Source: Liolophura sinensis
Taxonomy: Eukaryota; Mollusca; Polyplacophora; Chitonida; Chitonidae
Reading direction: 5' to 3'
DNA: 64,000 nucleotides
Assembly (NCBI RefSeq): GCF_032854445.1
Contig: NC_088301.1
Coordinates: 9,978,281 to 10,042,280 of the forward strand
Part shown: one piece after another, positions 32,185-56,181 of the stretch
Position numbering within the stretch: the stretch's first letter is position 1
Layout of the letters: every line of letters begins with the position of its first letter
Position numbers and translations under genes: made by a program
The notes under the pieces: generated by a model
What the model saw: only the letters and a program-made list of their open reading frames with translations
Database searches by the model: none
Told to the model about the DNA's origin: nothing

Positions 32185-35100
32185 TCAGTCGAAAGTTACA
32201 GTTCTAAGTGCATCTTCCTCAAGCATTTCCATTGTAGCTATGGCACCATCGTTAAACTTGAACGAAGATCCCCCATCAACCACTAAACAGGCATCCCACA
32301 TACGTGATCGAACCTGAATTCTGAAAACAGAAAAACACCGGATACGTCTTCAAATGTCATCACACTGTTGAACACTTTTTTGAAAATAGAGAAAAATTGT
32401 TATGACTGTAGTTCAAGCAAAACATTTACTGTACAAAAAAAAAGGTATAGGCAAAATGCACATAACAACTGGAATGAATGGGATAAAACTTTTCAGAAAT
32501 GAAAACAGAAATCTGAAGCCTTTCTGCCAATCAGTTATCATCCTTGGGCCATAACAGGCAAAGAATCAATGTAGTTAAATTGACTTTGATACCTTGACTG
32601 TGTTCAATACAACAACTACTTTCACCTAATGTTCAGCATTTTGCAAATGACACATTTTGTTTGATTCTGATTGATGATTCCTTCACCTTTACAGGGGCCA
32701 TTTACTGAGCTTTCTGTGAAATTTGATTAATTTTTCACCCGAAAAACCTGAAGGTAGGCATAAACTGTATCATTTTAACGCCTCTATCTGCTTCTGGATT
32801 TTCATTTTTACATACACAACTTAAGGTGAAACACACAAGCTCGAACCAGTTACAGGTTAGTCTTACCTGGGTCATCCAATGAAATCTCTCAACACATATA
32901 TATATATACATTTTTATCACTTGCTGTTTTTAAACTAGTAATGTTGCCTGATCATGTGACCAGAAATCTGACCTTCACTCTTACAATGGGACATCCTTGT
33001 TGGTCACAATAGGTTTTTCATTCTGCAACTTCATTCGTCGAAATAAATTTCATGTATTTCAAATGAACTTTAATTTCCCACCAAAACTGCCAGCGTCTTC
33101 CCTGAAAGTAAGACACTCCAAATGTGTCCACAATCGAAATGCTGCCTCACTGGAACACTATGTTGAAGACACCCAACTTTAAACTAAAGCCCAAAGTCAA
33201 TAAGTCAAAGTTAATATGTACATGCTTAACCACATGTCCATCATCTACTAGTTGCACACTTCTCACTGATGGAATATTCGGTATGCTACAAAACTTTCAC
33301 AACACATTTACACAAACTATAATTTAAATGAAAGAGCTATACAAACTGTGTGGAATCCTATTTTTTTAGATTTTTTAAAGTTTTTGTAACAGAGAAAAAC
33401 AGTTTAAACATCATCACTTTCTACAAAATCCACTGATTCGAGGCACATTGAAATTTCCGTCATGTTTTAGACTTGTCCAATGAAAAGCCTCCTTTCTTCC
33501 TCTTGAATATTCATTGTGACGTCAGGGTGCTTAAGGGTTTACTCTTACAATATGGTTACTGTGCATTTCCAGTTTCAGTTAAGTACGTACGTATATCATG
33601 ATAATCGTGGATTTTAAGGTCTGTAAAAGCCAACTCTATAAAAGAAAGAGTTTGGGATGTCCTAAAAAACCACATCACGCCTCCATTTGTGGCTCTAGTC
33701 TGCCAAAAATCTGTCTGGAATGCCATGACCTGAAGAGTCACTGGGCAAAGCTAAGAACAATGATGTATCTAATCTGTTCAAATGCTGGCATAAAGGAGAC
33801 TTCTGAGCCTTTGATGTCTAACTATTAAATACTCAAATACTTTAAGGTGTAGGCTGTATTTTATTTATCGTTAAGTATAGCTGTTTCATTTAAAGTAAAG
33901 GTGGTATAAATGAGTTCCTTTCTTTTAAACTTCATAACACTTTTTACGATTAATGTAACTCTCAGAATCAGAAAAAATTCTATTGATTTTAGACAGCTGT
34001 TTGGAGGTTCACATGGAACACTGGATGATTTTCTGTTGGAAATTGTAAGTTTCAGCACCAAAAATAACATTCTGAGACATTTATTTTCCTCTAAAAATGC
34101 ACTTTTTTGGAATTAAAGTCATTTTCAGTAATTCAGTAAACATTCCAGTGCACTGCTTACTTCTTGGCAAACCCTCTGGGGGTGGACACTTGGAATACAC
34201 CATTGATCAGGGGGTCCCGAATTGTGAACGCCATCTTCAAGTCGCTAGGGTCATACATGAGCGAGTTGTTAAAACGCGTTACGACTTCCTCCAGGGTCGT
34301 GTCATTGATCATTGGCAACGCCTCCTTAGATGTATCTCGAACTGAAATACAAAGCCAAAAGGCATGGGTATTACTTGTATTTATTAGCACAAACAGGTAT
34401 CTTAAAACGGCTACCACCATCAGACATATCTAGTCAAAAACATCACAAAGAAATGATTGTTTAGCTTTACACTATCTGAGAGGTCCTCACTTCAGACCAA
34501 CACCCCTTTACTAAAGTGGTTTTGTTCATTTGCTCACTTATTTTAATGTTTTTTATGTCATACTGAAGAATATTTCACTTATACGACAATGGTCATTATT
34601 ATGGTGGGAAACCCACTTTCATCAGCAGATCTGAATGGCTAATTCTCATATCACATTACAATTTATGTCTAATTCAAGTCACATGACAAAAGTTGCTAGA
34701 GAATTGAGTTTATTTTGGAATCTGCCATCATATTAACAGCGTCATGTTTGCAAGGTGTTTATTCAAGCATATTCTAAAGGCATTATTTTGTGTTGATTGA
34801 CAAAATTATGCATTTTGTGAAGCCCTTTAACTGGCCAATTCAAGCAAAGTATTTTTGTCTCCAAAATCAAATTAAAAATGTGCATAAACTGAACTGAAAA
34901 TTGATCTTTCATATGCGAAAAGGTTGAGGAATTAAGGTAGTACAAACTGACATTGTTCAAACCCAGTTTCGGGAGGTTGATATAACCAGTTTCTCACCTA
35001 TATCGAGCAGCTGACGGACGGCCTCCATAGACAGGTGGTTGATGTGGAAGGACCAGGATGTAGATCCTGTCCCCGTACACACGGTAATGCCGGAGCTCTT

Positions 35101-55600: not shown

Positions 55601-56181
55601 GTATGTAATTACTGAGACTCTCTAACATCCTCATACAAGCATGTACGCGTCAAATTCTCTCTGTTTTTCATTTTGATGGTCAAACCTCACGAGGCATTGT
55701 CACCAATCATATCATGTGAATGCAGTTTAACACATGCCTAACATGACAACAAATCTCTCAAACTTAAAGTCTCCAGACGAATGCTGAAATGAAACATCAG
55801 GCAAATATATATAAATCAACAAATACAAGACATTCTGGTTTTGATGATCTTTACTTTTATCCATAAAATATTACCTGAACAGAAGATAAGATGTTTACAG
55901 ACAAAAATTCTGCCTCTGCATGTATGATTTTCTTTACCTGAATTTCACCTTAAGCGGTAAAGAAAAAAAACTTATTTCAGTATGACAACTCATTACAGAC
56001 TTTATTATTTGAGTAAAACTCATCACATCAACTGAATATTTCTCGCATTCCTCATCTTCTAAACCTAATCTTTTCTGCAAGATATGTTTTTATTTATTTA
56101 GATTAATATCTGTCTGTTTGTTTCTTCCTACAGGCTGGTGTTAGACAGCTGTATGTTCAAATAGACTATGCTCCTATGTAG
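43673..56181 (+). CDS. SLC30A7: SLC30A7 (ZnT7), zinc transporter of the early secretory pathway (complete, 377 aa)
   Basis: Exons 43673-43749, 46297-46398, 48017-48130, 48580-48667, 49097-49223, 50026-50073, 50506-50658, 51147-51282, 51957-52047, 52400-52549 and 56134-56181 join in phase to 377 residues (human ZnT7: 376). It is a cation-diffusion-facilitator antiporter moving cytosolic zinc into the Golgi. Membrane segments begin with [20 protein letters not shown] and [20 protein letters not shown]; the zinc-site HxxxD pairs are HMFFD and HILAD. Between the fourth and fifth segments is a His-rich loop (about residues 158-230: [19 protein letters not shown]). The C-terminus, SQTHNIFTQ then [15 protein letters not shown], is family-typical. 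Introns 1, 2, 6 and 10 carry tandem repeats; that in intron 10 starts at the exon 10 donor. Confidence 0.97.
45690..45965. repeat. 24-bp minisatellite in SLC30A7 intron 1
   Basis: About 11 copies of GGTTTCCTTTGGCCTGTTTG plus TGCA. The unit is eight codons long, so open frames of 114 and 136 codons appear on the two strands; they are artefacts. Each unit has GTGCAGGT, an acceptor-like core after pyrimidines. Confidence 0.92.
46855..47192. mobile_element. Possible MITE with inverted ends, SLC30A7 intron 2
   Basis: GCACACGGACAACATTTGTT (46855) is mirrored by AACAAATGTTGCTTGTGTGT (up to about 47192). A minus-strand 112-codon frame inside shows no recognisable transposase. Confidence 0.5.
47440..47525 (-). 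repeat. Dispersed repeat family D, partial inverted copy
   Basis: AATCAGTCAGAATCAAGCAA and CTTCAGGTGAAATAC match the reverse complement of the 5' part of 32620-32835. Confidence 0.5.
47570..48005 (+). repeat. Variable 40-52-bp minisatellite ending at SLC30A7 exon 3
   Basis: About ten units of GTGGGCACCTGTTGATTCTT followed by GTGGGTTTCACCCTGTACAT. Some are longer by a GTGTGCTAT-type insert. The array decays into the acceptor of exon 3 (TATGTTTCAG at 48016). Confidence 0.88.
48770..49032 (+). mobile_element. SINE family 1, full length
   Basis: Head GGGGCCTCTGTGGTCCAAGG, B box GAGTTCAAGTCC, body to AAAACACCAATTAAATAAAA and an (AAAT)n tail. It ends about 65 bp before SLC30A7 exon 5. Confidence 0.93.
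49300..49700 (+). repeat. Possible tRNA-headed repeat, diverged
   Basis: GGTTGCATGCTCAAATCTAG resembles a B box; later TTAAGTCAGGAGGTTTGTTG and CCACCCATAAGCC...TACAAGTGAAATAAATATGA resemble the 3' body of mollusc-type SINEs. Intron 5 of SLC30A7. Confidence 0.4.
49730..50000 (+). repeat. SINE-like repeat with internal 19-bp tandem block
   Basis: CAATGAGATTTAGGGTTTGC and TTAAGTCAAGAGGTTTGTC lead to four tandem GGTTTCCTTTGGGCACTCA units, then CACCAATAAACCCGACTGCC, AAATTCTTGATGTTATAATA and TTAAACACCAGTTAATCAAT, a SINE-type tail. It ends shortly before exon 6. Confidence 0.55.
50120..50500 (+). repeat. Pyrimidine-rich low-complexity block, SLC30A7 intron 6
   Basis: Degenerate repeats of TTGTGTTCTCTTCTGTTCTT-like sequence fill nearly all of intron 6. 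It is effectively one very long polypyrimidine tract before the exon 7 acceptor at 50505. Confidence 0.8.
52550..55600 (+). repeat. 41-bp tandem array seeded on the SLC30A7 exon 10 splice donor
   Basis: Exon 10 ends CATAACATCTTCACACAG|GTACGT at 52549. From there a 41-bp unit (GTACGTAGTTAATCAGTCAA, then ACTCATAACATCTTCACACAG) repeats about 75 times. Nearly every unit ends in CAG|GTACGT or CAG|GTATGT, a strong donor sequence. Early copies are almost identical; from about 53580 the units vary more (TACCCAGTC, ATTCATAAC), and near 54760-55460 higher-order blocks of several units recur. Confidence 0.96.

Follow-up and report, generated by a model that had tools for sequence, protein, structure and literature searches.

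Results

Tandem arrays at splice junctions in the window

The window, by which we mean the whole 64,000-nt stretch of DNA analysed here (positions 9978281-10042280 of contig C7, in a genome of 609 Mb and 632 contigs), contains three tandem arrays lying across 5' splice sites, one at an exon of an SLC30A7-like gene and two at exons of an NADK2-like gene. The arrays, with units of 41, 94 and 38 bp, consist of tandem copies of an exon tail, the 5' splice site and the head of the intron. An earlier note on this DNA had described three arrays of these sizes, each carrying an exon end and its donor, and all three were recovered with Tandem Repeats Finder (TRF) at junctions placed by homology.

The penultimate coding exon of the SLC30A7-like gene (52400..52549, + strand) ends at base 52549, and the donor gtacgtag begins at 52550. 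The last 33 bp of this exon, together with 8 bp of intron, form the 41-bp unit. The array runs over 52517..55595 (+ strand; TRF span 52517-55533) with exon tail and donor as copy 1, and is degenerate beyond 55533; 74-75 intronic copies were aligned. The last coding exon, encoding 15 residues and then a stop, lies at 56134..56181 (+ strand). The best match of the gene is human ZnT7 (SLC30A7; E=1.9e-46), with an alignment that reaches the last residue of ZnT7 and is gapless over the junction; SLC30A5 was dropped as the identity of the gene in favour of this match.

Both arrays of the NADK2-like gene are read on the minus strand. The exon ending LNEVFIGESLSSR (35883..36113) has its last base at 35883, followed by the donor gtaagg, and contributes its last 62 bp to the 94-bp unit. 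TRF places ~4 copies of this exon tail and donor at 35563..35962; the period is 94 bp by self-comparison and 97 bp by TRF. The exon ending ENIKKCL (40602..40690) has its last base at 40602, followed by the donor gtaagtcc, and its last 11 bp lie within the 38-bp unit, of which TRF finds ~16 copies of exon tail and donor gtaagt at 39997..40613. The human NADK2 match (E=2.4e-105) is gapless across the 94-bp junction and is interrupted at the 38-bp junction by a gap of one residue, the split codon there having been omitted from the query. By homology, the old exon ends are thus retained at the SLC30A7-like and NADK2-like junctions. Because the human ZnT7 and NADK2 alignments run through the junctions, we take the first copy of each array to hold the true exon end and donor, the other copies being predicted to be intronic. 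The arrays had been said to begin exactly at the 5' splice site; instead, all three begin upstream of it, with 11-62 bp of exon in the first copy. The units run head to tail with graded divergence, as in a minisatellite.

A fourth duplication had been claimed at exon 12 of UBE3C, across an acceptor. The exon of the gene so named (4343..4497, minus strand) has its real start at 4497, and by eye the acceptor and exon start recur upstream in two older copies that have degraded (4498..4660, minus strand; copy junctions at 4590 and 4652). An acceptor is therefore crossed as claimed, but the array amounts to two degenerate copies that are visible by eye and absent from the TRF output. The exon matched no Pfam family above the cut-off, which leaves the gene name without such support; exons of a HECT domain lie ~43 kb to the left of the window on the same strand.

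In total the window holds 15 merged arrays (TRF rows, unit ≥10 bp), three of which cross a donor. The earlier note considered such a placement unlikely to arise by chance. The crossings are real, but the judgement depends on the background, and this turned out to be very dense in arrays (68 in 189 kb of other genes, see below). Chance within the window was discarded as a test, since the window had been selected and the test would be unfair; a gene sample replaced it.

Arrays in a sample of myosin and CCT genes

The sample comprised 16 genes picked without regard to repeats, namely 11 myosin and five CCT loci located by Pfam (part of the loci matching), with 189,015 bp in all. Exons were found by cross-matching of paralogues (tblastn), splice sites were placed on them, and arrays were called by TRF, excluding those with a unit <10 bp or a TRF score <50. 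The exon set obtained in this way is incomplete, chiefly for the five CCT genes, which contributed 18 of the 138 exon pieces. Twenty pieces were dropped by judgement before counting: seven were copies within arrays of one myosin gene (M6), and 13 resembled transposons or lacked credible splice sites. This left 118 trusted exons. Four more plausible exons were found later and left out of the density test.

The sample contained 68 merged arrays, which make up 19.5% of its sequence. An array starting inside the exon crossed seven of the 118 donors (~6%): one in M1, two in M6, three in M7 and one in CCT3. Acceptors were crossed at two of 118 exons, in M3, by an array with a 32-bp unit, and in CCT3, by an array with a 41-bp unit that enters the exon by just 1 bp. 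The M3 acceptor ladder, with ~43 copies, indicates that acceptor arrays can persist and is a counter-example to simple use of the first site. Of the 68 arrays, a single one was confined to a trusted exon, with an 18-bp unit that preserves the reading frame. A further array, at 10248 in M2, repeats the end of an exon but begins within the intron, 59 bp past the junction. By eye we noted four further donor arrays at exons that the annotation had missed, in a myosin (M2) and in CCT3, CCT5 and CCT6 (loci T1, T3 and T4). Since reading units in this manner favours donors, these four were kept out of all tests. One CCT3 array with a 66-bp unit is in frame and open across the stretch examined. For the T3 array at 6883, the donor of the first copy lies at 6927.

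We then compared array density around splice sites, with array interiors and dispersed repeats removed from the background. Array starts occurred at 0.56/kb in the last 120 bp of the exon (-120..0, seven starts), at 0.83/kb in the first 120 bp of the intron (10 starts) and at 0.39/kb from 120 to 960 bp (19 starts). The rate of donor crossing did not differ significantly from that in the adjacent intron (p=0.47) or from that in the deep intron (p=0.26). Starts within 120 bp of donors on either side (17 in 24.5 kb) were about twice as dense as in deep intron (19 in 49.2 kb), a borderline result (p=0.057). At acceptors, array ends fell in the exon at 0.16/kb (two ends) and in the two corresponding intron intervals at 0.63/kb (eight) and 0.64/kb (30). 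A cruder background of all non-coding base pairs gave 3.87 expected crossings of both kinds against nine seen (p=0.018); half of that expectation, 1.94, falls to donors, where seven were seen (Poisson p=0.004). This background makes for an unfair comparison, since a new array can hardly start within an existing array or a dispersed repeat. The contrast of seven donors to two acceptors in this unbiased set gives p=0.087 when taken alone. Taken together, these results suggest that acceptors and exon interiors are crossed less often and that donors are not avoided. The earlier note held that its general pattern would fail if donors showed no more arrays than the rest of the intron: within the power of 118 exons this is the outcome, whereas the motif counts that follow show an excess of ~1.5-3 fold.

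Genome-wide scan for repeated donor motifs

Genome-wide, three successive copies of the donor word CAGGTRAGT with gaps of 10-40 were found 906 times (353+553), compared to 232 times (161+71) for the word read backward. The permuted word CAGTRAGGT, which has the same dinucleotides, gave 355 triplets (177+178) and its backward form 140 (107+33). As single motifs, the donor word occurred 19,904 times and its backward form 7,585 times; the corresponding counts for the permuted word were 22,118 and 9,198. Per occurrence, the triplet rate of the donor word was thus ~1.5 times that of the backward word, 2.8 times that of the permuted word and 3.0 times that of the permuted backward word, ratios that carry no proper error as hits cluster within arrays. 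On contig C1, the matches listed held 14 separate donor-word arrays and none for the permuted word, and in the listed stretch of that contig a looser donor word gave 18 arrays against five for the control. Single-motif places were given unevenly by strand, those on the minus strand at 2.2 Mb of C1 being missing. Motif occurrences may also differ in their genic share. Arrays of the permuted control were likewise seen by eye at exon ends: one (L027) starts at the end of an exon that looks to us like ankyrin, and another (L026) starts ~14 bp after an exon end. The motif test is informative but short of decisive, and we leave the excess of roughly 1.5-3 fold unassigned; it may reflect a true hotspot, or arrays may be commoner in genes than between them.

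We inspected 28 arrays, 18 of them from 100 listed places of the looser donor word and 10 from other motif listings, all therefore selected for donor motifs. In eight of the 28 the array begins, by eye, where a coding exon ends; for at least three (L037, L038 and L040) the flank stops short of the array start. The exon of L010 matches an SNF2-type helicase, with best chains named just 'Helicase-like protein', and may be BTAF1/Mot1. That of L018 hit PF02906, the family of iron-only hydrogenases (1.8e-12). For L033, L036, L039, L041, L044 (with L009) and L043 (with L002) the assignment is based on an open exon, splice signals and an apparent resemblance to known proteins; Pfam returned no family for the exons of L033, L036, L041 and L044, and TRPM, KATNIP and PKD1 are guesses at names within this group of exons. 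Both the gene sample and the genome-wide motif list therefore yielded more cases, and the general pattern proposed from the window alone is borne out.

Structure of the repeat units

An exon-part copy could be measured in 19 arrays, and these form the basis of the unit analysis; L033, L044/L009, L043/L002 and the M2 array at 10248 lacked a clean copy of the exon part and were set aside. Unit lengths ranged from 31 to 124 bp, with 15 of the 19 below 100 bp and the others at 107, 109, 121 and 124 bp. In all 19, the unit corresponds to the exon beside it. For L039 the exon part was measured as 7 bp, but by eye ~57 bp is copied if an indel is allowed. The position of the donor within the unit was uniform, the exon fraction spanning 0.08-0.93 (Kolmogorov-Smirnov (KS) p=0.78, or 0.51 with a lenient measure). 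Six of the 19 units are divisible by three, which is the chance level and suggests that the copies are not generally translated. The arrays vary in unit, length and gene, and we noticed no motif common to the units beyond the donor. Among the SLC30A7-like copies, the consensus base is kept in 91-97% at each position of AG|GT; the donor G is retained in 69 of 74 copies and the T in 72 of 74, no better than at neighbouring positions.

Discussion

The same arrangement recurs across unrelated genes of this genome: a unit made of exon tail, donor and intron head that matches its own gene. We consider it probable that this reflects a minisatellite-rich genome combined with tolerance of arrays at donors, so that ordinary repeat growth, with no special machinery, accounts for the ladders. 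A founding tandem duplication of about 30-125 bp would span an exon-intron border by happenstance. Where such duplications arise is presumably close to random, with splicing acting as the filter on which of them survive; random duplications would often reach exon borders because the genome makes many of them and the units are long relative to exons. When a duplication covers a donor, the original donor would still come first in the transcript, giving a normal mRNA from which the copies leave with the intron, and the tolerated array could then expand through unequal crossing-over or slippage. If an acceptor is duplicated instead, the spare site would precede the real one and may be used first, so that such arrays would be lost more often, and a duplication within an exon would alter the protein, leaving this class nearly absent. 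Given the minisatellite richness of the sampled sequence, a ladder at several percent of donors would be expected. The counts hint at such an asymmetry between donors and acceptors without proving it. We infer the use of the first donor and the order of events from sequence, with homology speaking for the former.

The earlier note offered two readings, a mechanism that starts duplication at splice sites and tolerance of those events that leave the first donor intact. Our data favour the latter, in that exon interiors and acceptors are crossed less and donors are not avoided. Initiation at or near the donor, for example through transcription-linked processes such as R-loops or a paused polymerase that would turn donors into hotspots, would account for the 1.5-3 fold motif excess per occurrence over the permuted and backward controls, for the 18 looser-word arrays against five on C1, and for the doubled density of array starts within 120 bp of donors (p=0.057). 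Initiation at the splice site would be expected to leave the donor at the edge of the unit, and its uniform position argues against this, as does the lack of a peak at the junction relative to the next 120 bp of intron; moreover, the backward control differs by just ~1.5 fold, with clustered hits and no proper error. We therefore regard initiation as unlikely. Slightly less likely still is the far-reaching version in which donors are a true transcription-tied duplication hotspot in this lineage, with thousands of genes carrying growing ladders that record the duplicates the spliceosome ignores (downstream donors) as opposed to those it cannot (upstream acceptors).

Tolerance of chance duplications also has to be weighed against function, that is, ladders kept by selection because they serve recursive or alternative splicing or modulate expression as decoys. 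The high consensus at AG|GT in the SLC30A7-like copies, the open, in-frame 66-bp array of CCT3, from which longer isoforms are possible, and a human minisatellite (IFI6) that by the title of its report provides multiple donor sites would all fit. We nevertheless consider function distinctly improbable, given the variety of units, lengths and genes, in which the donor is the one shared motif we noticed, the chance-level share of units divisible by three and a GT kept no better than its neighbours. Long tandem arrays are hard to assemble, so copy numbers may be wrong, and this difficulty is what speaks for an assembly artefact; yet the copies differ from each other, TRF also gives periods of 82 and 123 bp, and the same design recurs in many genes, which makes an artefact very improbable. 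We give least credence of all to a mobile or dispersed element that captured exon ends, in favour of which nothing was found: a genome search that skips common words matched the 41- and 38-bp arrays to their own locus only, so that for two of the three window arrays no similar copies were seen elsewhere, and in the 19 measured arrays the unit matches its own exon.

If several percent of the donors of conserved genes are duplicated, the genome offers a natural version of the classic laboratory test of splice-site duplication, in which long-read RNA could show, at hundreds of sites, if the spliceosome invariably picks the first donor. Exon sequence would commonly enter introns as copies in this way, which bears on models of intron gain. 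The arrays also affect gene prediction, as their copies resemble exons (seven of the 138 called pieces).

Ordinary intronic minisatellites grow by slippage or crossing-over, and the arrays described here resemble them in unit size, divergence and such growth; they are unlike them in that the unit holds coding sequence and a splice site. The human IFI6 minisatellite reportedly consists of tandem splice donor copies from a real exon end, with a unit of ~12 bp. The likeness is close, since the arrays here start at a real exon end and every unit carries a 5' splice site; they differ in that the units are longer (31-124 bp), include long stretches of exon and occur at many genes of a single genome. 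The view that no named class of element behaves in this way was half right: a human minisatellite (IFI6) was said to supply multiple splice donor sites in the title of a 1995 paper, whereas we found no account of donor ladders across the conserved genes of a genome in titles and the beginnings of abstracts, subscription papers aside. A single element of this kind is thus already known; its occurrence on this scale, with long exon tails and with a contrast between donors and acceptors, is undescribed in the literature that could be searched. Internal tandem repeats at exon-intron boundaries of human segmental duplications can alter splicing (PMC2812944); these resemble our arrays in their minisatellite size and in lying, in some cases, at exon borders, but they belong to primate paralogues, about half are in coding sequence, and the passages of that paper available to us report no donor ladders over conserved genes. 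In a potato RdRp gene, an intron was gained by tandem duplication across an intron-exon boundary (PMC4974935). The two systems share a duplication that spans a splice junction; in potato a single duplication runs from the intron into the next exon and creates a new intron, whereas here multicopy arrays stand mostly at donors and are apparently removed with the old intron.

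Repeated splice sites and open frames

Among the acceptor ladders that we found, the strongest was in a sampled myosin locus (M3; bases 2146-3506 of stretch L051), where a 32-bp unit that includes an acceptor and 9 bp from the start of a myosin exon recurs in about 43 copies, an arrangement that is hard to square with simple use of the first site. Within the window, two further arrays in introns of the SLC30A7-like gene end near an acceptor: one at 47578-47959, about 58 bp upstream, and one at 50132-50464, a long pyrimidine-rich stretch, about 40 bp upstream.

At a sampled CCT3-like locus (L061; 6883-7738 in the reversed stretch), the donor array has a 66-bp unit that keeps the frame and is open within the portion examined; use of a later donor could therefore, as we predict, add 22-residue repeats to CCT3. 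An array of about 20 copies of a 63-bp unit (window 19989-21234) carries on its minus strand a 435-codon open frame with 21-residue repeats.

Distribution outside the window

The first 19 Mb of contig C1 of the L. sinensis assembly, about 3% of the genome, hold at least 100 of the 906 donor-motif triplet matches, among the matches listed. Donor-motif array density looks higher there, perhaps as a chromosome-end effect. One array on this contig (L038; G000:C1:508250-509420), inside which the examined stretch begins, has units running from an acceptor-like end through about 12 nt to an end that resembles a donor, so that each unit looks like a copy of a mini-exon.

A p53-family frame

At window 2-805, on the plus strand, opposite to that of the UBE3C-like gene, an intronless frame, open up to the window start, contains a P53 DNA-binding domain (Pfam, 1.5e-40) and a P53 tetramerisation motif (Pfam, 2.7e-13). 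This frame could represent either a retrocopy or a p53-family gene of compact structure.
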